DNA from: Natrarchaeobaculum aegyptiacum
Lineage (GTDB): Archaea > Halobacteriota > Halobacteria > Halobacteriales > Natrialbaceae
Assembly: GCF_002156705.1 (NCBI RefSeq)
Contig: NZ_CP019893.1
Coordinates: 1,426,001-1,490,000 of the forward strand
Direction: 5' to 3'
Length of the DNA: 64,000 nt
The notes beneath the pieces are model-generated. The model did not search any database. It saw nothing but the letters and a program-made list of their open reading frames with translations, and had not been told where the DNA came from. This document shows, in pieces, positions 19,312-44,435 of this stretch (position 1 is the stretch's first letter; every line of letters begins with the position of its first letter). The position numbers and the translations under genes were made by a program.

Positions 19312-19339
19312 GATTGCGACTATGCAATAACCCCCATCG

Positions 19340-19348
19340 CATATATAG
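19340..19348 (-). promoter_or_regulatory. TATA box of the liv system 1 operon
   Basis: Minus-strand CCTATATATGC lies 29-37 bases upstream of the first ATG (19311), giving a predicted start of transcription within a few bases of the coding region. Confidence 0.6.
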
Positions 19349-19453
19349 GTTGTGTAGAATAGCGGGGAATTGATACGAAACTCGGAGCAGGGATCGACCT
19401 GCTGGTCCCCCTCGAGTGTGAATCCGGGGCGAGCGACCCAACCGGACCGACGG

Positions 19454-20332: not shown

Positions 20333-20635
20333 TGGCTTTCGTACTCGTGGTCGTGATCGTGATCGGCAGTCTCGGTCGCGCCCGGTCGACTCAGGCCGAA
20401 CCCGCGTTCCGCAGATCGACGCGTGGGAGTGCACGTGAGACGCCGCCCCAGTGGTTCCGGCACCCGCTCGATCTGGGTAGTCGAGTCGAGTCCCGCGCCG
20501 ACCCGGAGTAGTACCCGTCCCGCGGACCGATTACCGATCGTCATCGTCGGTCGCGTAGGCGGTACTCTCCACGCCGCGTGTAATGACGATTTCGGTGGAG
20601 ACCTGGACGACGACATCTCGCTCACCACCAGCCCG

Positions 20636-21355: not shown

Positions 21356-22157
21356 TGCCACCACCTCCGAGGTAGGCTTCCTGCACGCGGTCGTCGCTGC
21401 TGATCGTCTCGGGTGGCCCCCATGCCAGCAGTTGTCCCTCGTTCAGCACGCCAATCTGGTCGGAGATGTCCATGACGATATCGACGTCGTGTTCGATCAA
21501 CACCACCGTCGCCTCCTCGGAAATTGCTTCGATCAACTCGACCATCTCGCCGGTCTCGTCCGGGCTCATCCCCGCAGTCGGCTCGTCCATCAACAGCAAG
21601 TCCGGGTCGGCCGCCAGCGCGATTCCGAGTTCGAGGTGCCGGCGCTGCCCGTACGCGAGATTCGCAGCCGGCGTCGCAGACTCCTCTGCAAGCTGGATGC
21701 GCTCGAGGATGTCGCGAGCGTCCGCGATCGGTTCCTCGAGGGCGGCGTGGTGGCGCGTGAAGTCACTCGGCGCGAAGCCGGAGTAGTGTGCCTGGGTCGC
21801 CAGACGCACGTTCTCGAGGACCGTAAGATCCTGGAAGAAGTTGTTGATCTGGAACGAGCGCACGATCCCCCGGTTGACGATCCGGTGGGGCGACTCGCCG
21901 ACGATGGACTCACCGAAGAACTCGATCGTCCCCGACGTCGGCGTGTGCTTGCCCGTGACCATGTTGAAGAAGGTCGTCTTGCCGGCCCCGTTCGGACCGA
22001 TAATCGACGTGATCCCGCCGGCCGGAATCTCGAGTGAGACGCCGTCGACGGCAGTGAGCGTCCCGAACTTCTTGGTGAGGCCCTCGGTCTTGAGGGCAAC
22101 ATCGGTCATCCCGGTGTCGGTCGACGCTGCAGTCTGTGATTGAGTAGCATCACTCAT
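21348..22157 (-). CDS. livG: Branched-chain-type ABC importer, ATPase LivG (system 2)
   Basis: A 269-residue ATPase with Walker A GPNGAGKTT, a Q-loop and an AYGQRRHLELG signature instead of the LSGGQ consensus, and Walker B LLMDEPTAGMSP. Its ATG shares one base with the livM stop codon (TAATG), so translation is probably coupled. It has a shorter N-terminal tail than the system 1 LivG. Confidence 0.93.
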   Translation of the reverse strand: MSDATQSQTAASTDTGMTDVALKTEGLTKKFGTLTAVDGVSLEIPAGGITSIIGPNGAGKTTFFNMVTGKHTPTSGTIEFFGESIVGESPHRIVNRGIVRSFQINNFFQDLTVLENVRLATQAHYSGFAPSDFTRHHAALEEPIADARDILERIQLAEESATPAANLAYGQRRHLELGIALAADPDLLLMDEPTAGMSPDETGEMVELIEAISEEATVVLIEHDVDIVMDISDQIGVLNEGQLLAWGPPETISSDDRVQEAYLGGGGSV

Positions 22158-23254
22158 TATCCTTTCACCTTCTCGATGTAATTGCGAAGCGTTTTTCTGG
22201 CGTTCGTGAGTGCCTGACTCGGATCGTTCCGGATCGAAATCAGGATCCCGGCAAGTCCTCGTGGTGCGAAGATCACGACCACGATGAAGATGCCACCGAG
22301 GATGATCTCCCAGCTGGCCACGCCGCCGAGGAGGTCCTCGACGAGGACCACCAGACCGGCCCCGAGCATCGGCCCCCAGAGGGTGCCGAGGCCGCCGAGC
22401 AGGAGCATGACGATCAGTTCACCGCTGATCTCCCAGTGGAGCAGGCCGGGGTGAGCGACGCTCTGGAACGGCACGTAGAGACCGCCCGCGAGGCCGGCGA
22501 AGCCGCCGCTAATCGAGAAGGCGATCACCTTGTAGCGGGTAACGTTGTACCCGATGAACTCGACGCGCTCTTCGTTCTCGCGGATCGCCTGCAACACGCG
22601 ACCGAACGGGGAGTTCGCGAGCCGAACGATCGCCGCCAGCGACACCACGACGAGCGCCAGCGTCATGTAGAAGTACAGGAGCCGGTGATCGAGGCCGGCC
22701 AGCTGGTGAATCGGCTCGCCGAATAGCTCGAAGCCAGCGACCCCGACCAGTCCGTCGTCAGCGCCAGTTACCTCGTCGACGTCGAGGATGGTCGCTGGCA
22801 GGTCGGTAAACGCGATGACGTAGAACATCTGGGCGAAGGCGAGCGTCAGCATCGCGAAGTAGATTCCCTTCGCACGCACGCTCAGCCAGCCGATGATCGC
22901 GGCGACGATGACACCCACGACGATGGAAGCTGGTAACACGACGAACAGGTTCTGGGTGTACTCCCGCATCAGCAGTGCAGCCGCGTAACCGCCAGCCCCG
23001 AACATCGCGGCGTGACCGAACGAGAGCAAGCCGGCGTAGCCAAAGATGAAGTCGAGGCTCAGTGCGAGCAGTGCGAAGATCAGCATCCGCACCAGGATGT
23101 TCAGCCAGAACGGCTCGAACACATTGATGACCGGTGCGACGACGGCCAGCAACACGACCGCGATGGCCACCGCGAGCCGGCCGCGAGAGGAGAGGATCTC
23201 GCTGCCCGTCTCGAGCGCGTGACTCCGATCGAAGAAGTCGGTGAACCACTGCAT
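22157..23254 (-). CDS. livM: Branched-chain-type ABC importer, permease LivM (system 2)
   Basis: A 365-residue membrane protein with LivM features GYAGLLSFGHAAMFGAGGYA and the cytoplasmic loop RVLQAIRENEERVEFIGYN. It begins immediately after the livH stop (TAG then ATG) with no spacer. It pairs with LivH to form the translocation path. Confidence 0.94.
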   Translation of the reverse strand: MQWFTDFFDRSHALETGSEILSSRGRLAVAIAVVLLAVVAPVINVFEPFWLNILVRMLIFALLALSLDFIFGYAGLLSFGHAAMFGAGGYAAALLMREYTQNLFVVLPASIVVGVIVAAIIGWLSVRAKGIYFAMLTLAFAQMFYVIAFTDLPATILDVDEVTGADDGLVGVAGFELFGEPIHQLAGLDHRLLYFYMTLALVVVSLAAIVRLANSPFGRVLQAIRENEERVEFIGYNVTRYKVIAFSISGGFAGLAGGLYVPFQSVAHPGLLHWEISGELIVMLLLGGLGTLWGPMLGAGLVVLVEDLLGGVASWEIILGGIFIVVVIFAPRGLAGILISIRNDPSQALTNARKTLRNYIEKVKG

Positions 23255-24124
23255 CTATGCTGCCTCCGTGGCCCCGAACAGGCCACTTGGTTTGATGATC
23301 AGGACGATCGCCATCATCGCGAACAGGAACAGCTCCGTCAGAGTCGGTGCGATCACGGAGCCGTAGGCCGTGACGAGCCCGACCAGCAGGGCCGCGTAGA
23401 CGGCCCCGCGGAAACTCCCCAGCCCGCCGATGACGACGATGACGAACGCCTCGATGATGATTCCCATCCCCATCCCGGGGTGGACAGAGCGCGAACCCCC
23501 GAGCAGGACACCGGCGATTCCGGCGAGTATGGCACCGAAGACGAAGACGCCGGTAAACACCTTGTTGACGTCGATGCCGAGGGCGTTGACCATCTCGGTG
23601 TCGTGGGCGCTCGCACGCATCAGGATCCCGAGGTTGCTCCGCTCGATTCCGATCCAGATCAGGGCGATCAGGACCGTGCTGACGATCAGCACGAACAGCC
23701 AGTAGACCGGATAGGTAACTGGGCCGACCTGAATCGTGCCCTCGAGAACGGTCGGGACGTCGATCCGTCTGGATTGGCCGCCGAAAATCAGGACGATCGC
23801 CCCCTGAATCGCGATCGCAAACCCGAAGGTGAGCAGGATGTGATACAGCGGGTTGCGGCCGTAGAGCGGGCGAAGCGAGAAGATCTCGATGGCCGCCCCG
23901 ATCAGGCCCACGAACAGCGGTGCCAGGAGCAACGCCAGCCAGTAGTTCCCGAACGTGCCGGCGATGACCGTTCCGAAGTACGCACCCAGCATGTAGAGCG
24001 CGCCGTGGGCGAAGTTGATGACGTCCATCATGCCGAAGATGAGCGTCAGCCCCGCGGCGATCAGGGCGAAGGTCATCCCGAGCTGGAGGCCCAGGAACGT
24101 CGATCGAATAAACACTTCTAGCAT
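23255..24124 (-). CDS. livH: Branched-chain-type ABC importer, permease LivH (system 2)
   Basis: A 289-residue membrane protein with MMDVINFAHGALYMLGAYFG and the loop MRASAHDTEMVNALGID, both typical of LivH. It lies 82 bases after the binding-protein gene; that gap has no gene. The two LivH proteins of this window are clearly diverged from each other, so the two transport systems probably have different ligands rather than being a recent duplication. Confidence 0.94.
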   Translation of the reverse strand: MLEVFIRSTFLGLQLGMTFALIAAGLTLIFGMMDVINFAHGALYMLGAYFGTVIAGTFGNYWLALLLAPLFVGLIGAAIEIFSLRPLYGRNPLYHILLTFGFAIAIQGAIVLIFGGQSRRIDVPTVLEGTIQVGPVTYPVYWLFVLIVSTVLIALIWIGIERSNLGILMRASAHDTEMVNALGIDVNKVFTGVFVFGAILAGIAGVLLGGSRSVHPGMGMGIIIEAFVIVVIGGLGSFRGAVYAALLVGLVTAYGSVIAPTLTELFLFAMMAIVLIIKPSGLFGATEAA

Positions 24125-24206
24125 ACTATAATTTCACCTGTCTCTCTGAAGCCAGTCTGTGACTCCGCTCGGCCCGTTCGATCGCGACGTACTCGAAGGC
24201 ATCGAT

Positions 24207-25448
24207 CTAGAGGCTGCAGCCCCAGGTGGGGCCCTCGATGTCTTCGAACGTCTCGATGACCTCGTTCTCGGGACCATCGTCACCCTCGACGACCTCGCGG
24301 ACGTAGAGGTTGTGGACCGGGTCGTGCGTCTCGGAGTTGAACGCCAGCGGTCCACGCGGGCTGTCGATCTGGAGTCCCTCGAGTGCGGGGATCAGGTCGT
24401 CGGCGTCGGAACTGCCCGTTTCCTCGACTGCGGCGGCGAACGCCTGCGCGGAGTCGTACCCCTGACACGCGTACACGTTCGGTCCCTCGCCGTAGGCGTC
24501 GGCGTAGGCGTCGTAGAACGTCTGGTTGCGATCGGTGTCGAGCGTGTCGGCGTAGTGCAACAGCGAGTACATGCCGAGTGCGGAGTCACCCTGGGCGGGC
24601 AGGGTGTCACCCGAGAGCAGGAAGCCGCTGCCGGTCTGGGTCATCTCCTCGTCGAGGCCGAAGTCACTGAACTGGTTGACGTAGTTGACCGCGTCGTCAC
24701 CCGCGAAGAACGAGAACACCGCCTCCGCACCGCTGTCCTCGATCTGGCCGAGGTACGAGGAGTAGTCGTCGGTGCCAAGCGGCGCACCGACTTCGTCGAC
24801 GACCTCGCCGCCGAGGTCCTCGAACTCCTCGGCGAAGAAGTCCTTCGAGTTCACGCCGAACGCGTAGTCAGCGTAGGCCAGACAGACGTTGTCGGCGACC
24901 TCGTCGTAGACGAACTCCGCGAGCGGCGCGGAGGTCTGCCAGTCGTTGAACGAGGTCCGGAAGTGATACGGCGTACAGCCGTCCTGTGTGACCCGGTAGT
25001 CGCCAGCGTTCGCATTGAACCAGATTGAATTCGCCTCGGACTGAACGGTGTCGATCATCGCCATCGCGACCGCACTCGAGACCGGGCCGACGATGGCGTC
25101 TGCCTGGTACTCGACGAGCAGTTCGCGGGTGACGTCGACGCCGCGGTTCGTGTCGGCTTCGGTGTCTCGCTCGACGAACTCGACCTCGCGGCCGTTTACC
25201 TCGCCATCGTGTTCGTCGATATACAACTCGAAGCCGTTGGTGATGCTCTCGCCGAGCATCGCGTAGGTCCCCGTGTACGGAAGCGCAAAGCCCACCGTCA
25301 ACGTGTCGTCGTCTTCGCCGCCGGCACAGCCAGCCAGCGCCGCCGCACCGACGGCTCCAGCACCTGCGAGATAGCCTCGTCGTGAAATCGTTTGTGATGT
25401 CGTCCCCACGGTTCGCGATTCGCTCGTACCACTGTCTCCCTGAGACAT
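24207..25448 (-). CDS. Branched-chain-type ABC importer, substrate-binding lipoprotein (system 2)
   Basis: A 413-residue Leu-binding-fold lipoprotein. The N-terminus has a Tat motif (SRRGYLAGAG) and lipobox (ALAGC), then LTVGFALPYTGTYAMLGES, the ligand-binding opening. It is the first gene of the second liv operon and is divergent from the CoA-transferase genes, with which it shares a 113-base promoter region. Co-location with a CoA-transferase and an aryl-CoA ligase suggests that the ligand is an acid activated by those enzymes, but this is inference. Confidence 0.92.
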   Translation of the reverse strand: MSQGDSGTSESRTVGTTSQTISRRGYLAGAGAVGAAALAGCAGGEDDDTLTVGFALPYTGTYAMLGESITNGFELYIDEHDGEVNGREVEFVERDTEADTNRGVDVTRELLVEYQADAIVGPVSSAVAMAMIDTVQSEANSIWFNANAGDYRVTQDGCTPYHFRTSFNDWQTSAPLAEFVYDEVADNVCLAYADYAFGVNSKDFFAEEFEDLGGEVVDEVGAPLGTDDYSSYLGQIEDSGAEAVFSFFAGDDAVNYVNQFSDFGLDEEMTQTGSGFLLSGDTLPAQGDSALGMYSLLHYADTLDTDRNQTFYDAYADAYGEGPNVYACQGYDSAQAFAAAVEETGSSDADDLIPALEGLQIDSPRGPLAFNSETHDPVHNLYVREVVEGDDGPENEVIETFEDIEGPTWGCSL

Positions 25449-27523: not shown

Positions 27524-27548
27524 TGCTGCTCTGTTGGTTTACCCAGCT

Positions 27549-29204
27549 ATGCAGCCTACCATTCCGGAGGAGTACTTGCCAGACGAATCGGCCGCTCCGG
27601 ACTACGTGTACACCACGCCAGAGGTGCACTACCCGAAGCACGTCAACGTCGCCGACGAACTCGTCGACCGCCACGTTCGCGAGGGACGGGGAGACAACGT
27701 CGCGATTTACTTCGAGGACGAAGAGATCACCTACGCCGACCTTCAGGAGCGAGTAAACCGGATGGGCAACGCCCTGCGTGACCTCGGCATCGAGGCCGGC
27801 GACCGGGTCGTCGTCCGCTTCCCGAACCGACCCGAGGCCGTCGTCACCTGTCTCGCCGTCCAGAAGATCGGTGGCGTCGCCCTCCCCTCGATGAAACTCC
27901 TGCGCGCGAAGGAACTCGACTACATCATCAACAACGCCGAGGCGAAGGCCGTCGTCGTCTACGACGATCTCGTCGACGAGATCGACAAGGCACTGCCCGA
28001 CCTCGAGACCGTCGAGAACGTGATCGTCGCCGAGCGAAACGACGTCGACCACGACCACCACAGCTACGACGAGCTTGTCGAGGCGGCCGACTCCGAGCTC
28101 GAGGCCTACGAGACCGAACGCGACGACCTCGCGTTGATGCTCTACACCAGCGGGACGACCGGTCGCCCGAAGGGCGCGATCCACACCCACCGTCAGATCC
28201 TCGCGACCGCGGACACCTACGCGCGATACTGCCTCGAGCCGACCGAAGACGACGTCTTCGGAGGCAACCCGCCGCTTCCGTTCGCCTACGGCTACGGCGA
28301 CCTCGTCACGTTCCCGCTCCGGTTCGGCGCCAGCACCAGCCTCGTCGAAGACGCGAGCCCGGCAGACCTGCTCGAGGCCATCGAGAACCACGGCATCACC
28401 GTCCTCTGTTCGATCCCCACCGCGTTCAACCAGATCCTCTCCCAGCACCCCGACGGCCCCGAAGAGTACGACGTCTCCTCGCTGCGCGTCGGCATGAGCG
28501 CCGGCGAGCCCCTGACGCCGAACACGTTCGAGAACTTCGAGGAGGCCTACGGCATCGACCTCCTCGACGGCATCGGGACGACGGAGATGCTCCACATCTT
28601 CATCAGTCACCGCCACGACGACGAGGAAATCGACCCGACCGCGACTGGCTTCCCGGTCCCCGGTTACGAGGCCAAGATCATCGACCCCGACACCGGCGAG
28701 GAACTCGAGCGCGGGGAGTCCGGCCTGCTCGCCGTCCGCGGCCCCACTGGTATCGAGTACTGGGACCGCCCCGAGAAGCAAGCCGACGCCGTCGAGGACG
28801 GCTGGTCGATCCCCGGCGACATCTTCGTCATGCGCGAGGACGGCCGCCTCGAGTACAAGTCCCGGCGCGACGACCTCATCATCTCGAGTGGCTACAACAT
28901 TCCCGGACCCGAAGTCGAGGCCGTCGTCGAGGAACACGAGGCAGTCTCGGAAGTGGCCGTCGTCGGGAGTCCACACGAAGAGCGCGGTGAAATCGTGAAG
29001 GCGTTCGTCGTCCTCGAGGAGGGCCACGAGGGCTCCGACGACCTCGTCGACGAGATCCAGAACCACGTCAAGAACACCCTCGCACCGTACAAGTACCCGC
29101 GAGACGTCGAGTTCTGTCAGTCGCTTCCCCGCACGGAGACGGGCAAGATCCGCCGCACCGAACTGCGCGATCAGGAACGCGAGAAAACGGCCGAAGCACA
29201 GTAG
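27549..29204 (+). CDS. Aryl-CoA ligase of the benzoate/2-aminobenzoate-CoA ligase family
   Basis: A 551-residue AMP-forming ligase. MLYTSGTTGRPKGAIHTH is the P-loop region. The stretches NPPLPFAYGYGDLVTFPLRF and DGIGTTEMLHIFISHR are characteristic of benzoate-CoA ligase relatives rather than fatty-acid ligases. RTETGKIRRTELR near the end carries the catalytic lysine. It should form benzoyl-, aminobenzoyl- or another aryl-CoA with ATP, the entry step for CoA-dependent aromatic degradation. The start at ATG 27549 is fixed by the TATA box; a TTG five codons earlier is not needed. No phenylacetate-specific ligase (PaaK) is in the window. Confidence 0.9.
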   Translation: MQPTIPEEYLPDESAAPDYVYTTPEVHYPKHVNVADELVDRHVREGRGDNVAIYFEDEEITYADLQERVNRMGNALRDLGIEAGDRVVVRFPNRPEAVVTCLAVQKIGGVALPSMKLLRAKELDYIINNAEAKAVVVYDDLVDEIDKALPDLETVENVIVAERNDVDHDHHSYDELVEAADSELEAYETERDDLALMLYTSGTTGRPKGAIHTHRQILATADTYARYCLEPTEDDVFGGNPPLPFAYGYGDLVTFPLRFGASTSLVEDASPADLLEAIENHGITVLCSIPTAFNQILSQHPDGPEEYDVSSLRVGMSAGEPLTPNTFENFEEAYGIDLLDGIGTTEMLHIFISHRHDDEEIDPTATGFPVPGYEAKIIDPDTGEELERGESGLLAVRGPTGIEYWDRPEKQADAVEDGWSIPGDIFVMREDGRLEYKSRRDDLIISSGYNIPGPEVEAVVEEHEAVSEVAVVGSPHEERGEIVKAFVVLEEGHEGSDDLVDEIQNHVKNTLAPYKYPRDVEFCQSLPRTETGKIRRTELRDQEREKTAEAQ

Positions 29205-30080: not shown

Positions 30081-30362
30081 TCAGGGGCTCTCGTCGGTGC
30101 GAAGGCGAAGGTCCGACCGCGGTTTCGCGATACAGGTGAGGACGTAGCCTTCTTCCTGCTCTGAATCCGAGAGGAACATCCCCTCGGACTGATCGACCTC
30201 ACCCTCGAGCAACATCGCGCTGCAGACGCCACAGACGCCCATGCGACACTGGTAGGAAGGGCGCAAGCCAGCTTCCTCGGCTGCCTCGAGGATCGGCTTG
30301 TCCTCCGGGACCTCGATCGTCCGGTTCTCGTCGACGAATTCGACGGTGTACGTTTCGACCAT
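30081..30362 (-). CDS. Plant-type [2Fe-2S] ferredoxin
   Basis: A 93-residue stand-alone ferredoxin. The cluster ligands are visible as YQCRMGVCGVC (C-x4-C-x2-C) followed by YVLTCIAKP with the fourth cysteine, and the fold begins with YTVEFVDENRTIEV. In bacteria the last domain of PaaE, the reductase of the phenylacetyl-CoA epoxidase, is such a ferredoxin fused to an FNR domain. Here no FNR domain is present and the gene lies beside, but divergent from, the paa genes, so it is a good candidate electron donor to the epoxidase. It follows the GNAT gene after three bases and is probably co-transcribed with it. Confidence 0.92.
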   Translation of the reverse strand: MVETYTVEFVDENRTIEVPEDKPILEAAEEAGLRPSYQCRMGVCGVCSAMLLEGEVDQSEGMFLSDSEQEEGYVLTCIAKPRSDLRLRTDESP

Positions 30363-30365
30363 CGC

Positions 30366-30863
30366 TCACCGCTCCGATTCCATCGAGCGTTCGTAGACGT
30401 GTTCGACCGCGTCGAATCCGTTCGCCTCGTAGAACGTCGCGGAGTCGTCGTCGCCGTCGATCACGTCGACGCGGTAGAAGTCCACGTCCTTGCCGGCGTC
30501 CTCGAACCAGTCGTGGACTGCCTCGAGGAGCGCGCTGCCGATACCTTCGCCGCGGTGGTCGTCGTCGACGAAGTGACCGTTGATGTAGCCGTGATTCTGC
30601 AGGCGGAAGATCGGGTGATTGCCCATGATCCGGGCCTCGAGGACGCCGACGAGGTCGCCCGACGCTTCCTCTTCGGCGACGAAGACCGCGCCGTACTTCG
30701 CGTCGAGCAACTGGCTCTCGAAGTACTGGAGCCAGCGTTCGTCCGCGCTCTCTTTGTGGTGATAGCGGTCGTCGTACTCCGAGAGGTGGTCGGTGAAGCC
30801 GTGCCAGAGTTCGAGCAACTCGTCACCGTCTTCTCTCCGGGCCTTCCGTATCTCGTACGTCAT
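30366..30863 (-). CDS. GNAT-family N-acetyltransferase
   Basis: A 165-residue protein. The acetyl-CoA loop is DDDHRGEGIGSALLEAV (R/Q-x-x-G-x-G/A pattern), and ATFYEANGFDAVEHVYERSM is the usual last strand and helix. The acceptor is unknown. It is first in a two-gene leftward unit with the ferredoxin and shares its 209-base upstream region with paaA. Confidence 0.88.
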   Translation of the reverse strand: MTYEIRKARREDGDELLELWHGFTDHLSEYDDRYHHKESADERWLQYFESQLLDAKYGAVFVAEEEASGDLVGVLEARIMGNHPIFRLQNHGYINGHFVDDDHRGEGIGSALLEAVHDWFEDAGKDVDFYRVDVIDGDDDSATFYEANGFDAVEHVYERSMESER

Positions 30864-31072: not shown

Positions 31073-31993
31073 ATGCCCAGTGAGAAGCAATTCAAAGAAG
31101 AGTTACAGAACGGGCGGATGATCGAATCGGTAGACGAGATGACCGACGGCTACAAACAGGCGCTCAAGCAGATTCTGACCGTCTCGGCAGACACCGAACT
31201 GATGAGCGCACCGGCGTACTACGAGCAGTCGCTCAACGCGCCGTCGCTCGACGCCCGCGCATCGTGTGTTAGCGTCATCCAGGACGAGCTCGGCCACGGC
31301 CACATCGCCTATCGCCTGCTCGAGGACCTGGGAGAGGACCGACACGAGCTCATCTACGAGCGCGAACCCCACGAGTTCCGCAACACGTACGGGTTCGACC
31401 AGCACATCGACACCTTCGCGGAACTCGTCACCGCGCACGGGCTGTTCGACCGCGCGGGCATCACGCTGCTCGCGGACGTCCACGAGAACACCTCCTACGC
31501 GCCGTGGAAGCGCGCGCTCACGAAAGTCAGCAAGGAAGAGCAGTTCCACCTCCGCCACGGCGAGACCTGGATGCGCCGACTCGCCAACAACAACGAGAAG
31601 ACCCGCGAGAAGGTCCAGGACGCCGTCGACTGGATGTTCCCGATGGCCGTCGAGTGGTTCGGTCTGCCCGACGACAAGAAGAAACACGACGACCAGCTCG
31701 AGTACCGCCTGAAGGGACTGAGCAACGACGAACTCCGTCAGGACTGGCTGCACCGCGCCATGCCGTTCCTGACCGAACTCGACCTCGACGTCCCGGCGCA
31801 CTACGACGAGGAGCAAGAAGAGTACGTCCTCGAGTACGACATGCCAGTCGCCTTCGACGAGGACAACAAGGAGTGGCTGTTCGACGAACCGATCTCGTGG
31901 TCGGACGTCATGGACCGCTGGCGGAATCGGGGCCCGGCGAACGAACACTACGTCGACCTGCTCCAGTCGGGCACCGTCGAGGTCCAGATCTAG
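31073..31993 (+). CDS. paaA: 1,2-phenylacetyl-CoA epoxidase catalytic subunit A
   Basis: A 306-residue ferritin-like diiron protein of almost the same length as bacterial PaaA. The iron ligands lie in two E-x2-H motifs, QDELGHGHIAYR (about residue 75) and KEEQFHLRHGETW (about 155), with further Glu residues on the other helices. PaaA with PaaC and PaaB inserts one oxygen atom from O2 into the ring of phenylacetyl-CoA, using electrons from a reductase. It heads a five-gene operon with tight spacing. A related aryl-CoA substrate cannot be excluded, since the nearby ligase is of the benzoate type. Confidence 0.95.
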   Translation: MPSEKQFKEELQNGRMIESVDEMTDGYKQALKQILTVSADTELMSAPAYYEQSLNAPSLDARASCVSVIQDELGHGHIAYRLLEDLGEDRHELIYEREPHEFRNTYGFDQHIDTFAELVTAHGLFDRAGITLLADVHENTSYAPWKRALTKVSKEEQFHLRHGETWMRRLANNNEKTREKVQDAVDWMFPMAVEWFGLPDDKKKHDDQLEYRLKGLSNDELRQDWLHRAMPFLTELDLDVPAHYDEEQEEYVLEYDMPVAFDEDNKEWLFDEPISWSDVMDRWRNRGPANEHYVDLLQSGTVEVQI

Positions 31994-31996
31994 ATC

Positions 31997-32425
31997 ATGT
32001 CCAGCACACAGCGAAACGCCAGCGAACGACGACAGTTCGGCGAGCCAGACCCAGACGCAGACGTCGGTGGCTCCGAGGTCGGCGAGTTCGTCCGCTCGCG
32101 CCGAGACGACTCGACCCCGTTCGAACGTGAACTGTGGGACGTCCTAGATGGAATCCCCGACCCCCACATCCCGGTCAGCCTCGTCGAGATGGCGATGATC
32201 TACGACGTTCGCAACGACGACGGGCACGTGACCGTCGAGATGAGCTTCCCGTGTATGGGCTGTCCGGCCTACGACATGATTCACAACGACATCCGGAGCT
32301 GTCTGACCGTACTCGACGGCGTCGACGACGTCGAGGTCGACGTGGTCTGGGACCCCGTCTGGAGCAAGGACATGCTCACCGACGACGTCCGAGAGAAGCT
32401 CCGCAACTCCGGAATCAGCATCTGA
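31997..32425 (+). CDS. paaD: PaaD N-terminal domain as a free protein (MIP18/DUF59 family)
   Basis: A 142-residue protein starting three bases after paaA. After an acidic ~40-residue tail comes the MIP18-like domain: LWDVLDGIPDPHIPVSLVEMAMIYDV, then VEMSFPCMGCPAYDMIHNDI with the conserved cysteines, and DVVWDPVWSKDMLTDD. Bacterial PaaD has this domain followed by a zinc-binding C-terminal domain, but here the protein ends after the first domain. The missing domain appears as its own gene at 33426-33602. The family is thought to help mature the metal centre of PaaA. Confidence 0.92.
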   Translation: MSSTQRNASERRQFGEPDPDADVGGSEVGEFVRSRRDDSTPFERELWDVLDGIPDPHIPVSLVEMAMIYDVRNDDGHVTVEMSFPCMGCPAYDMIHNDIRSCLTVLDGVDDVEVDVVWDPVWSKDMLTDDVREKLRNSGISI

Positions 32426-32450
32426 ACACGACCGTAGCACCTGAAAACCC

Positions 32451-32657
32451 ATGCAAAAGTACGACGTATTCGCACGACTGCACCCCGGTGACGACACGAT
32501 TCACATCGGCAACGTCACCGCACAGAACGAGAGACTCGCAAAGATGTACGCATACGAAACCTTCGACGAAGAGGACTGGGACTACATGGCGGTCGTCGCC
32601 CAGGACGACCTCCACGAGGTTACCGGAAAGATGCCCACCGCGGGGGTGAGCCGATGA
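32451..32657 (+). CDS. paaB: Phenylacetyl-CoA epoxidase subunit B
   Basis: A 68-residue protein that begins YDVFARLHPGDDTIHIGNVTA and continues with AQNERLAKMYAYETFDE, the PaaB fold, though shorter than the ~95-residue bacterial form. PaaB bridges PaaAC units in the enzyme. The stop overlaps the paaC start by four bases (ATGA), so translation is coupled. Confidence 0.93.
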   Translation: MQKYDVFARLHPGDDTIHIGNVTAQNERLAKMYAYETFDEEDWDYMAVVAQDDLHEVTGKMPTAGVSR

Positions 32658-33421
32658 GCGACTGGTCCGCCGAAGCGATCGACTACGTGCAGGCCGTCAC
32701 CGACACCAAGCTCGTCCTCAGCCAGCGCTACAGCCAGTGGAGCCTCGCCGGCGACACGCTCGAGGACACCATCGGTGGCTCGAGCGCCGCACAGGACGAG
32801 ATCGGTCACATCCGCCAGCTCGCGAACGAACTCGAAGACCAGGGTCGCGACATGGAGTGGATCCGTGGCGCACGCGACCCCGAGGAGTTCGCCAACGCCG
32901 CCTGCCTCGACGCGATCGACGGCGACTGGGCGGCCTTCATGGCGACGGTCGGGCCGGCCGACCGCGCCGCGTGGTACCTGCTCGACGCCATCGATCAGGA
33001 GGACCTCGAGGGGCTGCTCACCAAGATCGGCGAAGACGAGTACTTCCACCTCGAGTACCACGACGCCCGCCTCGAGACGCTGGCCGAGGAGAAACCAGAG
33101 GAGATCCAGGCAGCGCTCGAGGAGACGCTGCCCCAGGCCCTCGCGTTCATCGGTCCCCAGAGCTACGACGAGGAGACCGATCCGGTCTACCAGGCCGGCT
33201 TCACGAACCGACCGGTCGCCGAGATCCGCGAGGCGTTCGCCGCTCACTACCGCGACCTGTTCGCCGACACCCCGGTCTCGCTCGAGAACGTCGACTGGGA
33301 CGTCGCCGCCGACGACGACGAGTGGGACGCGACCCGCCGCCGCGTCGACGACGGCGCGATCGCCGAAGAGGACGTCAGCCAGATCAGCGGCGAGCGCAAC
33401 GAGCTGTACGCGATGAACTGA
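32654..33421 (+). CDS. paaC: Phenylacetyl-CoA epoxidase structural subunit C
   Basis: A 255-residue ferritin-like homologue of PaaA. It keeps AQDEIGHIRQL and GEDEYFHLEYHDARL at the places of the diiron helices but has a more negative surface and an extended C-terminus. In the bacterial enzyme PaaC is the non-catalytic partner that stabilises PaaA. The order here (A, D-N, B, C, D-zinc) differs from the bacterial paaABCDE order. Confidence 0.94.
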   Translation: MSDWSAEAIDYVQAVTDTKLVLSQRYSQWSLAGDTLEDTIGGSSAAQDEIGHIRQLANELEDQGRDMEWIRGARDPEEFANAACLDAIDGDWAAFMATVGPADRAAWYLLDAIDQEDLEGLLTKIGEDEYFHLEYHDARLETLAEEKPEEIQAALEETLPQALAFIGPQSYDEETDPVYQAGFTNRPVAEIREAFAAHYRDLFADTPVSLENVDWDVAADDDEWDATRRRVDDGAIAEEDVSQISGERNELYAMN

Positions 33422-33425
33422 TACC

Positions 33426-33602
33426 ATGTCAGCAAACGCAACCGAACCGACCGCCGTCTGCCCCTTCTGTGAGTCGACGGAGACGGAACGGTACTCCCAG
33501 TTCGGCGGGGAAATCTCGAAGCGCCAGTACTACTGCAACGGCTGCCACACCGTCTTCGAGCGCATCAAGTACGACGGTGCGACGCCCGACACCGGTCGGT
33601 AA
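33426..33602 (+). CDS. PaaD C-terminal zinc-binding domain as a separate 58-residue protein
   Basis: A small gene starting four bases after the paaC stop. The protein has CPFCESTETERYSQFGGE, a KRQYYCNGCHTVFERIK stretch and a short polar tail, giving two C-x2-C pairs. The spacing and the SQFG and CK/RxxYxC context match the zinc-binding C-terminal part of bacterial PaaD. It is missing from the paaD product encoded at 31997-32425. The two halves probably act together on PaaA maturation. It is short enough to be missed by gene callers. Confidence 0.85.
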   Translation: MSANATEPTAVCPFCESTETERYSQFGGEISKRQYYCNGCHTVFERIKYDGATPDTGR

Positions 33603-33842: not shown

Positions 33843-34685
33843 ATGCAACTGAAAGCGTTCGATGAGCTAGAGCTAGAGTACTTCACGACGGAGGTCGAGG
33901 ACCACATCGGCACCCTGCGTCTCGACCGACCACCGGCCAACGCCCACGACATCAACGTTCTGCTCGAACTCCAGCGAGCAGTAGAGGCCGTCCGCTTCGA
34001 CGAGGACGTCCGCGTCTGCCTGTTCGGTAGCTCCAACGACAGGTTCTTCTCGACCGGATTCGACATCAACGAGCTCAACGAGAAATCGGGCCGACAGGTC
34101 GGCTACGCGAGCCAGACCAGCAAGGAAGTCATCATGAAGATGCGCACCACCGACACCATCTTCATCGCGATGGTCAACGGCCACTGCATGGGTGGCGGGC
34201 TCGAGCTCGCACTCGCCTGTGACTTCCGCTACGTCGGCAACGACGACGACTACAACATCGGCATGCCGGAGATCTTCCTCGGCCTCATCGCCGGCGAGGC
34301 CGGTACCCAGCTGCTCCCGCGCTACATCGACCGCTCGGAGGCCCTGCGCCTGATGCTCACCGGCGACACCCTCACTCCCGAGGAAGCCACCGAGAAGGGC
34401 ATCTTCGACGAACTCCACGACCCCGACGAGGTCGAGGACGCCGCCCGCGAATTCGCCGCCGAAATCGCCGAGAAGCCCGCCGTCGCCGTCGGCAACAACA
34501 AGCTCGCCGTCAACGAGGGCCTCGAGATGCCGCTGTCGGACGCACTGGCTCACGAGCGCGAACTCCAGAACCGCCTGCTCGGCTCCGACGTCGCCAAGGA
34601 AGGCACCCAGGCGTTCATCAACGACAAAGAGCCGGACTTCATCGCCGTCGAGAAAGGCGAGAAAGAACCCGGCTACGACGAGTGA
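33843..34685 (+). CDS. Enoyl-CoA hydratase (crotonase family)
   Basis: A 280-residue crotonase, somewhat longer than usual. GHCMGGGLELALACDFR and NIGMPEIFLGLIAGEAG hold both catalytic glutamates, so it is expected to be a true hydratase (PaaF-like, 2,3-dehydroadipyl-CoA hydratase, is one option). The GLIAG in place of GxxPG after the second Glu is a slight variation. It has its own promoter 240 bases after the last paa gene. Confidence 0.9.
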   Translation: MQLKAFDELELEYFTTEVEDHIGTLRLDRPPANAHDINVLLELQRAVEAVRFDEDVRVCLFGSSNDRFFSTGFDINELNEKSGRQVGYASQTSKEVIMKMRTTDTIFIAMVNGHCMGGGLELALACDFRYVGNDDDYNIGMPEIFLGLIAGEAGTQLLPRYIDRSEALRLMLTGDTLTPEEATEKGIFDELHDPDEVEDAAREFAAEIAEKPAVAVGNNKLAVNEGLEMPLSDALAHERELQNRLLGSDVAKEGTQAFINDKEPDFIAVEKGEKEPGYDE

Positions 34686-34879: not shown

Positions 34880-35941
34880 CTACGGCGTCAGCGACTCCGG
34901 TGACGGGTACTCCTCGACCGCTTGCCGGTACCGGATCGTCGATCCCTCGAGTCGCTCGACGACGCCCAGTTCGGCGAGACGCTCGAGGTGGGCGGCGGCC
35001 TCGCCCGCGCCGAACTTCGCGTGGAAGCCCTGCAGATCGCCGAAGAGGTCGCCGGCGACGGCCCACGGAGTGGTTCCGGGCTCGTCGCTGGCAGCCCCGC
35101 CCCCGCCCCCGCCGTCGCCCTCGCTACCGCTCGAGAGCGACTCGAACGCCGCGGCAGCCCGCTCGCGGTGGTGTGCTCTCACGTCTGCGATCTCGGGGGC
35201 GAGTTCGAGCGCCGTCCCGTGACCGGGCTGGCCGTGGGTGAACCCGTGTTCGTCGGCGACGGCCTCGAGGCGCTCGAGTGAGGTCAGGTAGTCACCGAGC
35301 GGGTCGTCGAGTCGGGTGTCGCTCCCGCCGACGTTCGGCGTGTACGTCGGCAAGAGGAGATCACCCAGGAAGAGGGTCTCGTGGGTCCGGAGCGCGAGGT
35401 GGCCGGCCGTGTGGCCGGGGGTAGACAGGAGTTCGACACCACCGACGGTATCGCCGTGGTCGTGGGTCTCGACGGGGAACGAGTCCGGCATCGACGTCGG
35501 CGTATCGGTCTGGGCGATCGCGTCACGGGTCGACTCGGGAACGCCCCACTGCTGGAGGGTGCGGTCGTCGCGGTCGACGCGCTCGGGGCGGCTCTCCGCG
35601 TAGTCGCCGACGAGCGGGGCGTCGACCTCGTGCATGTGGACGGTCGCCTCGGCCTCGCGGGCCAGCCGGGTAGCGAGCCCCGAGTGATCGACGTGCCAGT
35701 GGGTGACGACGACGTGGTCGACGTCGGTCACCGCCATCTCGACGGCCTCGAGTTCGTCGGTCAGGGTCTCGAAGGCTGGCGGCGACGGCGGACCGGGGTC
35801 GATCACGACGCCGTGGTCTGGCAGGACGTACGCGCTGTTGATCCCCTCGGGCGTCCCGTAGCCGACCGGGACGCGGACGAACTCGGCGTCGGGCTCACGC
35901 CCGTTCTCGCTCTCGCGCTCACTCTCGGTCATCGGGCGCAT
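34880..35941 (-). CDS. Metallo-beta-lactamase-fold hydrolase with C-terminal winged-helix-like domain
   Basis: A 353-residue protein. The metal site is clear: VVVTHWHVDHSGL (HxHxDH), STPGHTAGHLALR, FLGDLLL and a later HGQPGHG. After a Gly-rich linker of about residue 270, the last ~70 residues resemble a winged helix (HLERLAELGVVERLEGSTIRYR), as in LACTB2-like hydrolases. It probably cleaves a thioester or other ester formed in the pathway. It is the last gene of the leftward ubiD operon and overlaps the previous gene by about 14-23 bases, depending on whether ATG 35932 or 35941 is used. Confidence 0.88.
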   Translation of the reverse strand: MRPMTESERESENGREPDAEFVRVPVGYGTPEGINSAYVLPDHGVVIDPGPPSPPAFETLTDELEAVEMAVTDVDHVVVTHWHVDHSGLATRLAREAEATVHMHEVDAPLVGDYAESRPERVDRDDRTLQQWGVPESTRDAIAQTDTPTSMPDSFPVETHDHGDTVGGVELLSTPGHTAGHLALRTHETLFLGDLLLPTYTPNVGGSDTRLDDPLGDYLTSLERLEAVADEHGFTHGQPGHGTALELAPEIADVRAHHRERAAAAFESLSSGSEGDGGGGGGAASDEPGTTPWAVAGDLFGDLQGFHAKFGAGEAAAHLERLAELGVVERLEGSTIRYRQAVEEYPSPESLTP

Positions 35942-37355
35942 CGAGGGGCCGATCCGCCAAAAGATCGTCGAGTCCCAGTTCCTCCCACCGATCGGCGATC
36001 GACGAGAGGACGTTCTCCGAGAAGGAGGTCTCGAGGGTCACCCGCGGGGCGATGTACTCTTCGTCCCAGCGCGGGTCCCAGGTCGCGTTGATGTAGAGCC
36101 GGGAACCGGTGGTGCCGTCGCGGCGGTAGAACGGCGCCGTGGCCGCGGGCGCGTTCGGCTCGCTGAACGTCCAGTCGTTCGCCGGATGGGCTTTCACCCA
36201 CATGTCGTCGACCGCTCGAGCGAGATTGGTGGGATCGGCCTGCTCGTCGAGGACGAGCACCTTGTCGAAGAGGTCCGAGAACGAAAAGAGCATGTTCGCT
36301 AGCTGCCACTCGAACCCGGCGTAGAGGATCTCACTCGAGACGATACAGAGGCCGAGTCGGGCCTCGACGGGGAGGCGAATCCACTCGACGGGTGAGACCC
36401 CCCAGTAGTTGTTCGCCCGGCGTGAGAGCTGGGCGGCCTCGACGAGGCTCTGGAAGTGGACGTCGGCTGTGAGCGGTTTCTCGAGCGGCGTGAACGCGAC
36501 GACTGGCTCCGGCCGGGTCGCGATAGCGTCGACGTGGAGATCGACGAGTGCCACCTCCGAGGCGAGTTCCCAGGCCGCCCGTGGCGCGCCGGGGCCGGCG
36601 TCGACGGCGCTGAGCCAGCCGTCGATACAGACCTCCGCGTCGGCCGGAACGAGCCTCGAGTCGGCCCGTGCCACCGGCACGTCGGCGAGTTCGCCCGCCC
36701 GGTCGGGAACCGCTGGATCGATCCGGTCCTGGGTCCACCCCTGCAGGGCCGCCACGAGCGCACCGGCGGAGACGCCGAGGACGACGCTCGCCTCGACGTC
36801 GGTCAGCCGCTCGTCGGCGGGCCACTCGAGGACCGCCTCCGGAACCGCGAGCCGAAGCTTCGAGCTCCTGATGGCGTGGCCGCGGATCGGAGCCCACGTC
36901 GTCTCGCCGCCACAGTCGAGGACGAGCAGGCCGAGATCGACCAGCGGCGCGACGTCGCGGTCGAGCGGGAGCCCGAGCCGAGTGAGGTCGGCGTCGGGGA
37001 GTGCCGACAGGTCGGGCTCGTCGGTCAGGCGCTCCTCGAGCGGTGGGGCCTCCCGGCGGGTCGAAAGGTGCTCGAGGAGGTCGACGTACGAGCAATTTGC
37101 GCCGAGGTCGAGCGCGCGAGCGAGTCGATCCCACGGCCGCCGGTCGCGGTTCTCGAACTGGTCGAGGCTCGCGTACGCGCCGCTCGCGAGGCGTACCTTC
37201 CCGGCTGTGTTCTCGAACAGCGTCGCGGGACAGCTGTGACGGACGGCCTCGCTCGCGACGGTCGCAGCCGTCCCATCCCAGTGGACGTGTTGATCGATCG
37301 TGACGAGGTCGTCGGCCTCACGCAGGGCCGCGAGGTGGGACCTGAGCGAGGTCAT
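35919..37355 (-). CDS. UbiD-like protein without the catalytic motif (tandem paralogue)
   Basis: A 478-residue protein with the same N-terminal plan as the adjacent UbiD (LRSHLAALREADDLVTIDQ, then FENTAGKVRLASGAYASL and RPWDRLARALDL). Where active UbiD enzymes have E-G-P-F-G-E/D, this protein reads DAGPGAPRAAWEL, so both catalytic acids are missing, and the prFMN-contacting YRxM-like stretch is also unclear. It starts at ATG 37355, overlapping the ubiD stop by four bases. It may be a structural subunit of a hetero-oligomeric decarboxylase, in the way multi-subunit phenylphosphate carboxylase contains several UbiD-like chains. Confidence 0.78.
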   Translation of the reverse strand: MTSLRSHLAALREADDLVTIDQHVHWDGTAATVASEAVRHSCPATLFENTAGKVRLASGAYASLDQFENRDRRPWDRLARALDLGANCSYVDLLEHLSTRREAPPLEERLTDEPDLSALPDADLTRLGLPLDRDVAPLVDLGLLVLDCGGETTWAPIRGHAIRSSKLRLAVPEAVLEWPADERLTDVEASVVLGVSAGALVAALQGWTQDRIDPAVPDRAGELADVPVARADSRLVPADAEVCIDGWLSAVDAGPGAPRAAWELASEVALVDLHVDAIATRPEPVVAFTPLEKPLTADVHFQSLVEAAQLSRRANNYWGVSPVEWIRLPVEARLGLCIVSSEILYAGFEWQLANMLFSFSDLFDKVLVLDEQADPTNLARAVDDMWVKAHPANDWTFSEPNAPAATAPFYRRDGTTGSRLYINATWDPRWDEEYIAPRVTLETSFSENVLSSIADRWEELGLDDLLADRPLDAPDDRE

Positions 37356-38911
37356 CGGTCGACCTCCCCCGGATCGACGAACGGGAAGTGGTCCGGATCG
37401 ACCCCGGCATCCGTGAGGATCTGCTGGGCGCGGTAGGTGACCTCGACGTCGTCGTGGCGGCCCGTCGGTCCACCCTCGCGAAGATCGGCAAACCCTCGAG
37501 TCGCGCCACGGTCGTTCTCGCCAGCGTCGCCGTCTGCGTAACCGTCCCGGGTCGCGTCGATGTAGGCTTTCGCCGTCTTGGCCTTCGACGTTCCCGTCTG
37601 GACGTCGCCTTTCTCCGTGGGCGTCTGGTAGATGTTCAGCGGCACTTTCGGCATCGTCTCGACGCCGAACTGGTGGAAGTCGCTGTCGGGGTCGGCGTGC
37701 AGCGCCAGCGCCTCGAGCACCTCTCGCTGGGAGAGGGGGTTGACGTCTGCGTCGACGAAGATGAAGAAGTCGACGTGCAACATTCCCCAGGTCGTGAAGA
37801 TGAAGTTCGCGAGTTCGTGGAGGTAGCCGGGGTCGGTCGTCTCCGTCGAGATGACGTAGACGGTTCGCGGGGTTGACTTCCAGGGGACGCAGTACTCGAC
37901 GTCGAAGCCGGCCGCCCGGAGGCCGAGGGTGGCGTCGGGGCCGACGCAACCGATCTCCATCGAACTGGTGGAGTTCTCGGAGTAACCGACGCCGGTCCCC
38001 TCGACGCAGAAGGGGATGATCGGGTCTTGCTGGTGGGTGATCGCCGTCACGCGCAGCAGGGGCATCGAGCGCCGGGGACCGTGCATGTAGCCGAAGTAGT
38101 CACCGAACGGTCCCTCGTCGCGGCGTTCGTTCGGGACGATCTCACCCTCGATAATCAACTCGGCCGTCGCCGGCACCTGCAGGTCGCTGGTCTCGCACTC
38201 GACGAGTTCGATCGGTTCACCCTTCAGTCCGCCGGCAAACTCCGCCTCGTTGCGTCCCGTCGGGATCCACATCACGGACGTGTACTGGACGGCCGGTTCA
38301 GCGCCCACTGCGATAGCGACGGGCATCGGTTCGTCCCGGCGCTCGTACTTGTAGTAGTAGAGGTTCGGCGTCTGCTCGCCGGCAAGTAAGAGCACGCTCG
38401 CGGACTTGCTGTCGTGGATCATCGACCGGTGGTACGACCAGTCGGTCCACGCCGAGTCCGGATCCGGCGCGACGAGCGTGTGGAGGTTCGAGTAGCGCCC
38501 GCCGTCGCCCGCGTGGATGTACGGCCACGGAAACTCGAGTAAGTCCACGTCGTCCCCGGTTCTGACGACCTCCTTGCAGGGGGCCGCGGCGGCGTCGACG
38601 TGTTCCGGCTCCTCCGGATTCTCGAGGCGCTCGATGACGAGTTCGTAGAATTCGCGGTAGGAGAGCCCGCGAGGTAACTCGAGGCCGAGGGCGATCCGGT
38701 CCCACGGGCGAGACTGGCTTCCCCGGTAGGGATCGCCGATCAGCCGCGCCGACTCGACGTCCTCGAACAGGGGGACCGTTCCGTCGTCTTCGTTGGCCAT
38801 CATGGTGACCGCGCTGGCCTCCAGGTTCCAGGAGACGGGTTCGGAAACACGATGGAGGTCGCCATCGTTCTCGAGGGCGTGGACGTACTGGCGCAGGCTG
38901 TTGATCGTCAT
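37352..38911 (-). CDS. UbiD-family prFMN-dependent decarboxylase
   Basis: A 519-residue UbiD-type decarboxylase. The prFMN and catalytic residues are recognisable: SYHRSMIHD with the arginine (about residue 160) and RRDEGPFGDYFGYMHGP with the Glu and Asp of the E-R-E/D set (about residue 265), followed by VPWKSTPRTVYVISTETT. The family removes or adds CO2 on aromatic or alpha,beta-unsaturated acids in the cytoplasm; UbiX, which makes prFMN, is not in this window. It overlaps its neighbours by four bases on both sides, in the operon 39417 to 34880. The substrate is unknown; a hydroxybenzoate- or phthalate-type acid would suit the neighbourhood. Confidence 0.9.
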   Translation of the reverse strand: MTINSLRQYVHALENDGDLHRVSEPVSWNLEASAVTMMANEDDGTVPLFEDVESARLIGDPYRGSQSRPWDRIALGLELPRGLSYREFYELVIERLENPEEPEHVDAAAAPCKEVVRTGDDVDLLEFPWPYIHAGDGGRYSNLHTLVAPDPDSAWTDWSYHRSMIHDSKSASVLLLAGEQTPNLYYYKYERRDEPMPVAIAVGAEPAVQYTSVMWIPTGRNEAEFAGGLKGEPIELVECETSDLQVPATAELIIEGEIVPNERRDEGPFGDYFGYMHGPRRSMPLLRVTAITHQQDPIIPFCVEGTGVGYSENSTSSMEIGCVGPDATLGLRAAGFDVEYCVPWKSTPRTVYVISTETTDPGYLHELANFIFTTWGMLHVDFFIFVDADVNPLSQREVLEALALHADPDSDFHQFGVETMPKVPLNIYQTPTEKGDVQTGTSKAKTAKAYIDATRDGYADGDAGENDRGATRGFADLREGGPTGRHDDVEVTYRAQQILTDAGVDPDHFPFVDPGEVDR

Positions 38912-42575: not shown

Positions 42576-44435
42576 ATGCCCGTCGCGGACCGTATCCTCC
42601 GAGTCGACCTCAGCAGGGAGACCGTTACGAGCCGGCCGATCCCCGAGCGCTGGCTCGCACAGTACGTCGGCGGGAAGGGAATCGGCGCCCGGTACCTCTA
42701 CGAGGAACTCGAGCCGGGCACCGACCCCCTCTCGCCGGCGAACGCCCTGCTGTTTATGACCGGCCCGCTGACCGGCCTCCTGCCCGGTGAGCAACGGTAC
42801 GCGGCGATCACGAAGTCCCCGCTGACGGGGACGTTTCTGGACTCCTACGGCGGCGGGACCTTCCCCGGGAGACTGGCAGGGTCGCTCGAGAACCACATGG
42901 GGATCGTCGTCACCGGCGAGGCCGAGGAACCGGTCGTCCTCTCGGTCGCAAACGGGGAGGCGACGCTCGAGTCGGCCGCCGACCTCGCCGGACTGGACGC
43001 TGCGGGGACCGACGAGGCGTTCCCGAACGCGGCGGTCGCCTGCATCGGACCTGCCGGCGAGAACGGCGTCAGGTACGCGACGATCGCCTCCGACGGCGGC
43101 GATCACCACGCCGGTCGGGGCGGCGCGGGAACCGTCATGGGCGCGAAGAACCTGAAAGCCGTCGTCGCCCACGATCCCCCGGCAGAGCCCGACTCGCGGA
43201 CCGTCGAAGCCCTCAAAGAGCGCGACGACGAGGCCTTCGCCGCGAGCGACGCCGGCCAGTGGCTCACCTCGAGCGACACCCTCGAGACGGTCGACTTCGC
43301 GAACGAGGTCGGCGTGCTCCCAACGCGAGGGTGGCAGGAAGACCGATTCGAGGGAGCCGACGACATCGGTATCGAGCAGGCCCGCGAGGCGGCGACCGAA
43401 CGCGAACGGCCCGAGGACGCCGTCCCGGGCGGGTTCCGAGTCGAGCACGACGACGGCGAGAGTGTCGTCCGCGGGGCGACACCCATCGTCTTCGGGGCGG
43501 GACTCGGCATCGACGACTTCGACGCGGTCGCGACCCTCGGGGCTCGCTGTGACCAGCTCGGCATGGACGTCATCACCGCCGGTAACGCCGTCGCCTGGGC
43601 CATCCGCGCCAGTCAGGAAGGGCTGCTCGAGCGCGACCTCTCCTTCGGCGACGAGACGGCCGCCCGCGAACTGGTCGACGAGATCGCCACCCGCTCGAGC
43701 CCGCTCGGGGACGCACTCGCCGACGGCGTCGACCGGGCAGCCGAGGACATCGGTGGCGAGGATCTCGTCCCGACGGTCAAGGGGATGGAGCTCTCCTCGT
43801 ACCACCCGGGGAACGCCAAGGCGATGGCGCTGGCCTACGCGACGAGCGACCGCGGCGGCTGTCACCGCCGGGCCCGACCGGTCGAACTCGAACCGGTGGA
43901 CGCCGAGACGTGGTCACGAGACCGGGCCGCCGAGCGCGTGATCGACGAGCAGGACCGCCGCGCCGTACTCTGGAGCCTGATCGCCGACGACTTCCTCGAG
44001 GATGTCCTGCAGGCTGATCTCGGGAGCGAGTGGCTCACGGCGGCGGGATACGACCACGAGCCGACCGACCTCGAGCGCGTCGGCGAACGGATCTGGACGC
44101 TGGTGCGACTGTTCAACGTCCGCGAGGGGTTCTCGCGGGAAGACGACGCGTTGCCGGGCGCTCTATCGGCCGACGAAGAGGACTCGAGCGATCACAGCGA
44201 GGCCGCAACGGACGAACCGAACGGCATCGACGCGGCCGTCTTCGAGTCGGTGCTCGAGCACTACTACGACGCCCGCGACTGGGATCGCGAGGGCCGACCG
44301 ACTCGGGACCTCCTCGAGCGCCTCGACCTCGTGGACCTGGTCGACGATCCCGGAGCGCTCGAGTCGCTGGATACAGGCCCGGACCCGGACGAGAACACCC
44401 GCTCGTCGGCGGAAACCGGGGCGTGGTCCCGATGA
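42576..44435 (+). CDS. Aldehyde:ferredoxin oxidoreductase-like protein lacking the 4Fe-4S cysteines
   Basis: A 619-residue AOR-family protein. The N-terminal pterin-binding domain is normal (RILRVDLSRETVT, YVGGKGIGARYLYEEL, GPLTGLLPGEQRYAAITKSP, GRGGAGTVMGAKNLKAV). Enzymes of this family bind a 4Fe-4S cluster through C-x2-C-x3-C plus a distant Cys. The matching stretch here is PEDAVPGGFRVEHDD, with no cysteine, and the later LCxF cysteine is also replaced (WSLIADDFLED). The mid-domain GARCDQLGMDVITAGN is otherwise typical. It may carry a W or Mo pterin without a cluster. Its stop overlaps the YqeC gene. Confidence 0.85.
   Translation: MPVADRILRVDLSRETVTSRPIPERWLAQYVGGKGIGARYLYEELEPGTDPLSPANALLFMTGPLTGLLPGEQRYAAITKSPLTGTFLDSYGGGTFPGRLAGSLENHMGIVVTGEAEEPVVLSVANGEATLESAADLAGLDAAGTDEAFPNAAVACIGPAGENGVRYATIASDGGDHHAGRGGAGTVMGAKNLKAVVAHDPPAEPDSRTVEALKERDDEAFAASDAGQWLTSSDTLETVDFANEVGVLPTRGWQEDRFEGADDIGIEQAREAATERERPEDAVPGGFRVEHDDGESVVRGATPIVFGAGLGIDDFDAVATLGARCDQLGMDVITAGNAVAWAIRASQEGLLERDLSFGDETAARELVDEIATRSSPLGDALADGVDRAAEDIGGEDLVPTVKGMELSSYHPGNAKAMALAYATSDRGGCHRRARPVELEPVDAETWSRDRAAERVIDEQDRRAVLWSLIADDFLEDVLQADLGSEWLTAAGYDHEPTDLERVGERIWTLVRLFNVREGFSREDDALPGALSADEEDSSDHSEAATDEPNGIDAAVFESVLEHYYDARDWDREGRPTRDLLERLDLVDLVDDPGALESLDTGPDPDENTRSSAETGAWSR

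Follow-up and report, generated by a model that had tools for sequence, protein, structure and literature searches.

The oxygenase cassette at the centre of a 64,000-nucleotide stretch of Natrarchaeobaculum aegyptiacum (contig NZ_CP019893.1; the whole stretch is hereafter called the window) encodes the two domains of bacterial PaaD as separate genes, D and E, which flank genes B and C. Judged from sequence comparisons, A-D-B-C-E is how these genes are normally arranged in an oxygenase family that occurs in many phyla, has been little studied and forms a sister branch of PaaA. The best reading, which we hold with somewhat better than even confidence, is that the cassette encodes a predicted benzoyl-CoA or aryl-CoA epoxidase from the sister branch of PaaA/PaaC, together with a two-protein maturation pair.

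Organization of the cassette

Reading of the open reading frames placed all five genes on the forward strand, with D and E as distinct genes. The cassette and its relevant neighbours were as follows:

27534..29204, + strand, acyl-CoA ligase of the benzoate-CoA ligase family (TIGR02262, 381.7 bits, cut-off 375.25)
30081..30362, - strand, [2Fe-2S] ferredoxin (PF00111, 1.5e-19; fdx_plant above cut-off)
30366..30863, - strand, GNAT acetyltransferase, forming a pair with the ferredoxin across haloarchaeal loci (synteny)
31073..31993, + strand, A, PaaA-like catalytic diiron oxygenase subunit (PF05138, 5.2e-61)
31997..32425, + strand, D, DUF59/MIP18-type protein of 142 aa, N-terminal half of PaaD (PF01883, 2.5e-17)
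32451..32657, + strand, B, short PaaB-like protein of 68 aa (PF06243, 0.02; TIGR02157, 2e-4)
32654..33421, + strand, C, PaaC-like structural subunit (PF05138, 1.5e-20)
33426..33602, + strand, E, stand-alone PaaD zinc ribbon of 58 aa with a CxxC...CxxC pattern (PF23451, 1.7e-15)
33843..34685, + strand, enzyme of the enoyl-CoA hydratase/isomerase family, downstream of the cassette (PF00378, 7.5e-48)

The original prediction of a PaaD encoded in two parts was confirmed by reading frames and profiles, but its placement of the halves at opposite ends of the operon was not, as D is the second gene of the cassette and the two parts enclose B and C. The start of E lies 4 bp past the paaC stop. The frame of A opens at a GTG (31043); relatives begin at the ATG at 31073. 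B, which is shorter than Paracoccus PaaB (94 aa), was 37% identical to B of Thermus and occupied the same position in relatives. Homologues of the enoyl-CoA hydratase/isomerase (57-86% identity) adjoin the cassette in most haloarchaeal relatives.

Proteins D and E

E matched PF23451 (Zn_ribbon_PaaD) over residues 4-48 with 56.9 bits (cut-off 27) and displayed the pattern C-P-F-C ... SQFG ... YYCNGC. It shared 46% identity over 46 residues with the C-terminal portion of Paracoccus PaaD, and its proposed identity as the PaaD zinc domain was upheld. As had also been anticipated, its frame was kept next to paaC in every haloarchaeal locus of the A-D-B-C-E type that was read. Codon comparison with relatives indicated purifying selection on E (dN 0.13-0.21, dS 0.63-1.21, dN/dS about 0.13-0.34) and likewise on D and B; conserved frame and purifying selection together mark E as a real gene. 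The four cysteines were intact in all 134 E domains, and an E-type zinc ribbon was found in 43 of 43 carrier genomes tested as well as in each of the 34 haloarchaeal genomes that encode a related A. AF2 modelled E, with modest confidence (pLDDT 71), as a ribbon of three strands; the nearest folds are zinc ribbons, NrdR being the best, with weak E-values. A sequence search of the PDB with E gave nothing significant.

D carries the PF01883 domain (DUF59/FeS_assembly_P) behind an N-terminal extension of ~34 residues and ends without a zinc domain. Its AF2 model (pLDDT 81) matched DUF59 structures 3cq1 and 3lno (E about 1e-9). It has this fold in common with DUF59 proteins such as SufT, from which it differs in being encoded inside an oxygenase cassette. 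Thermus structure 2cu6/3cq1 (TTHB138) was considered as D of the Thermus cassette and rejected, the sequences being different and the fold alone being common.

A profile search (PF23451 and PF01883) of the window genome (3.93 Mb in one contig, 99.8% complete) yielded no full-length PaaD elsewhere, in keeping with the original prediction. Only a single match exceeded the PF23451 cut-off, and the other two PF01883 matches belonged to frames of 401 and 365 aa with no zinc-ribbon match above cut-off. Bacterial PaaD (TIGR02159) unites both domains, PF01883 and PF23451, in one polypeptide encoded after C, in contrast to the two genes flanking B and C in the window. Scored as separate genes against the TIGR02159 model, D reached 73.1 and E 35.9 bits (cut-off 108.15).

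A two-gene PaaD is already known to annotators of haloarchaea. NCBIfam holds haloarchaeal models NF041868 (127 aa, PaaD) and NF041869 (56 aa, called PaaE); Haloferax gibbonsii pHG2 is annotated paaA-B-C-D-E in RefSeq, with a paaE of 55 aa; and D and E occupied separate frames in all 30 canonical haloarchaeal loci tested. These proteins likewise are a DUF59 protein and a zinc ribbon, but their order is A-B-C-D-E with D next to E, unlike A-D-B-C-E in the window. Window D and E scored 108.8 and 37.1 bits against NF041868 and NF041869, with cut-offs of 180 and 100, respectively.

A sister family of PaaA

The original prediction had assigned D and E to PaaA. Window A was only 28% identical to Paracoccus PaaA and 51.5% identical to a plasmid-encoded protein of Thermus thermophilus (NZ_AP024272, L113). 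The equivalog models gave low scores for A (TIGR02156, PaaA, 138.8 bits, cut-off 280), B (TIGR02157, PaaB, 21.3 bits, cut-off 85.45) and C (TIGR02158, PaaC, 41.6 bits, cut-off 133.35). The residues of the diiron motif (E, DExGH, D, E...H) were present in window A when aligned with E. coli PaaA and were invariant in A1.

In a tree of A subunits rooted on PaaC, a branch (SH-aLRT 89, which is not decisive) set the sequences from A-D-B-C-E cassettes apart from true PaaA (SH-aLRT 99), the latter side including both fused bacterial and split haloarchaeal clusters. The window enzyme is accordingly classified here, from identities, profiles and tree, as a member of a sister family and not as PaaA proper. 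Since it is an oxygenase of another family, its proteins fall far below the Paa models and the haloarchaeal PaaD/PaaE models. The cassette has homologous A and C, a B subunit and the diiron motif residues in common with 1,2-phenylacetyl-CoA epoxidase PaaABC(E), but A lies on a separate branch and a ferredoxin is found instead of the PaaE reductase. Phenylacetate-CoA ligase PaaK was absent from the window genome (best TIGR02155 match 33.9 bits, cut-off 646.3), as was the PaaE FAD/2Fe-2S reductase, with partial matches only and none to TIGR02160 above cut-off. No biochemistry for the A-D-B-C-E branch was found in the literature open to search.

Distribution and gene orders

A profile-guided scan that took one genome from each GTDB species gathered 80 loci (L118-L197). 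According to record titles, these belonged to Acidobacteriota, Armatimonadota, Chloroflexota, Actinomycetota, KSB1, Bacteroidetes, Gemmatimonadetes, Bipolaricaulota/Acetothermia, Fraserbacteria, Bacillaceae and other Bacillota, Proteobacteria MAGs and haloarchaea. Plasmid records further contributed Deinococcota (L113) and Agrobacterium plasmids (L198). The sister branch of PaaA spans more than ten bacterial phyla and haloarchaea. Distribution within haloarchaea was patchy: a related A was detected in 34 of 292 genomes (32 at >=59% identity) from five families, and many cassette copies were plasmid-borne.

Mapping of D, B, C and E by profile allowed division into three clean classes, with a few records among the counts that duplicate a locus. 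D and E were separate in all 101 complete A-D-B-C-E clusters, without any fusion. They were adjacent but still separate in the 16 A-B-C-D-E clusters, all haloarchaeal, and fused in 16 of 16 clusters of order A-B-C-[D=E], all of them bacterial paa. As exceptions, some contigs ended early, E was located upstream of A in four Bacillaceae loci (L181, L183, L186 and L189), and D was divergently placed in L096. Fused canonical PaaD and the cassette with a separate E were found together in genomes of ten Bacillota and of some Chloroflexota and Acidobacteriota; because the same genomes carry both, lineage does not force a choice between the two forms.

Most members of the sister family currently bear the annotation "phenylacetic acid catabolic protein". 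E often had no gene-table entry (H. turkmenica, Haladaptatus salinisoli, Agrobacterium CG920 and Thermus HB5018), so the expectation that the small gene is easily missed held, as a tendency and not as a count, since plasmid gene tables are incomplete. In Thermus HB5018, the gene called as a crotonase overlaps E in a different reading frame. The A-D-B-C-E cassette of Agrobacterium pAtCG920 (L198) is divergent, and its zinc ribbon, at 11292-11411, has no gene-table entry. A PaaB-like stretch occurred twice in a row (A-D-B-B-C-E) in L113, L118-L120, L122-L125 and others, apparently as a duplicated B.

Fusion or fission of PaaD

The original prediction described PaaD as divided. Fused PaaD is more simply read as derived because D and E are separate throughout the sister branch, its bacteria included. 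By parsimony, ancestral separate D and E need two changes, namely two fusions. A divergent fused sequence (L245, Thermogemmatispora) lies on a long branch of the A tree. AU tests rejected neither a single fused clade (p-AU 0.14) nor a single split haloarchaeal clade (p-AU 0.25), and thus did not reject one fusion followed by fissions. Separate genes are proposed as the more likely ancestral state, with the one-piece bacterial PaaD as a later fusion, a polarity that is statistically unsettled; the direction implied by "divided" is probably reversed. Overall, the initial interpretation stands for zinc-domain identity and conservation and gives way for PaaA and fission, and the two-gene form was already covered by NF041868/NF041869.

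Neighbouring genes and candidate substrate

Of 44 carrier genomes, 21 had a gene above the cut-off of the benzoate-CoA ligase family no more than 16 kb from E, the window included (at about 4 kb), against none of 17 canonical paa loci in the same genomes (Fisher p = 2e-4). This p-value ignores relatedness and overstates independence, as the 44-genome sample is phylogenetically uneven, with many Bacillota. About half of the carrier genomes had no close benzoate-CoA ligase. The Thermus cluster included a clear benzoate-CoA ligase (588 bits), two aldehyde dehydrogenases, crotonases and a branched-chain-type transporter. Such neighbours suggest that the cassette may serve the same pathway step as benzoyl-CoA epoxidase BoxAB, but its oxygenase is of PaaA type and no BoxB relative was detected in any of the 44 carrier genomes. 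The cassette also occurs in Geobacillus and relatives; Bacillus stearothermophilus reportedly degrades benzoate via benzoyl-CoA, which would suit the Geobacillus-type cassette.

A ferredoxin adjoined nearly all haloarchaeal cassettes of the A-D-B-C-E type and was absent beside the divergent L095. Proximity of the ligase, lack of BoxB, PaaK and PaaE reductase and the adjacent ferredoxin together point to benzoyl-CoA or a related aryl-CoA as the substrate and to the ferredoxin as the likely electron donor. The pair formed by ferredoxin and GNAT acetyltransferase (30081-30863 in the window) was fixed beside haloarchaeal cassettes, even the divergent L093, L094, L096 and L107.

Two adjacent UbiD-family genes were located at 35919-38911 of the window, of which the first did not match the central domain of UbiD. 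UbiD pairs and an MBL-fold gene accompany many haloarchaeal cassettes and not bacterial ones. The UbiD pair and a CoA transferase of the window would also suit another aromatic acid.

Proposed function and alternative explanations

According to the preferred reading, the neighbouring enzyme of the benzoate-CoA ligase family would make benzoyl-CoA or a related aryl-CoA, which the oxygenase would use as substrate, and the adjacent [2Fe-2S] ferredoxin would pass electrons to A. D and E would cooperate in trans by loading or repairing the metal centre of A or of the ferredoxin, without themselves participating in turnover. According to reviews, E. coli cells require PaaD in vivo, whereas the protein is without effect in vitro and has not been detected in the PaaABC complex; a maturation role was suggested for it (PMC4498308, PMC9493321). 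The DUF59 protein SufT aids maturation of Fe-S proteins (PMC4982691). A maturation pair acting in trans is the simplest and most likely reading of D and E, and an action in trans on the oxygenase would fit their strict co-occurrence. The sequences themselves establish the identities of the genes, the separateness and conservation of D and E, the branch to which the cassette belongs, the nearby ligase and the lack of BoxB, PaaK and PaaE reductase; we infer substrate, maturation role and D-E interaction.

E may alternatively be a working part of the oxygenase, as a structural subunit or as a rubredoxin-like Fe(Cys)4 electron carrier. Its four invariant cysteines in two CxxC pairs, its tight genetic linkage to C and a B of 68 instead of 94 aa are compatible with such a role. 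It is nevertheless an unlikely one: E. coli PaaD is dispensable in vitro and undetected with PaaABC (PMC9493321, PMC4498308), haloarchaeal cassettes already have a ferredoxin beside them, and the model of E most resembles zinc ribbons such as NrdR, although with weak E-values. Even less can be said for E as an unrelated small zinc ribbon, for instance a VdcD-like small subunit of the neighbouring UbiD-type decarboxylase. The nearby UbiD genes and a weak likeness of the E model to the small chains of vanillate decarboxylase entries 7ae4 and 7ae5 prompt the idea, but E matches PF23451 strongly, shares 46% identity with Paracoccus PaaD and stays with C in bacteria, while just 2 of 54 long loci contained relatives of the window UbiD. 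This hardly credible role was rejected.

As to the enzyme itself, the original view of a one-piece PaaD of phenylacetyl-CoA epoxidase, split in haloarchaea with both halves still acting on PaaA, appears quite improbable for the window. True haloarchaeal paa clusters do have split, adjacent D and E, and the p-AU values for one fused clade and one split haloarchaeal clade leave room for fission within the haloarchaeal paa lineage. The window cassette, however, lies outside that lineage and shares its gene order with bacterial relatives from more than ten phyla, in which D and E are likewise unfused, and its genome has neither PaaK nor PaaE reductase. An ordinary, merely diverged phenylacetyl-CoA epoxidase would explain the common set of subunits and the conserved diiron motif residues. 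This is very unlikely, as every Paa equivalog cut-off was failed and the window genome has no phenylacetate-CoA ligase; moreover, cassette and normal fused-PaaD paa are both present in ten Bacillota and several Chloroflexota and Acidobacteriota genomes, so that the two are unlikely to be interchangeable.

Extended to the whole sister branch, the preferred reading would define an undescribed epoxidase family for benzoyl-CoA (aryl-CoA), present in haloarchaea and in more than ten bacterial phyla, that replaces BoxAB and keeps an ancestral two-protein PaaD. We advance this broader proposal tentatively and with less than even confidence. If true, it would open the function of each PaaD domain to genetic dissection. 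PaaD has remained a puzzle, being essential in vivo, dispensable in vitro and of unknown function (PMC4498308, PMC9493321); D and E are separate, non-adjacent and strictly retained, so each can be deleted or swapped alone. The family would also be a candidate for the missing aerobic aryl-CoA oxygenase of thermophiles, Chloroflexota, Bacillaceae and haloarchaea without BoxB. A search of openly accessible papers, with few subscription journals among them, turned up none that dealt with split forms of PaaD or with benzoyl-CoA oxygenases of PaaA type from thermophiles or haloarchaea.

Other features of the window

Two sets of branched-chain-type ABC transporter genes were located by acyl-CoA genes at 14199-25448 (gene calls, synteny) and perhaps take up aromatic acids. 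An aldehyde ferredoxin oxidoreductase gene was present near the aromatic cluster, at 42576-44435. At 51314-54835, an MCM helicase gene contained an intein with a LAGLIDADG homing endonuclease, at about residues 342-806.
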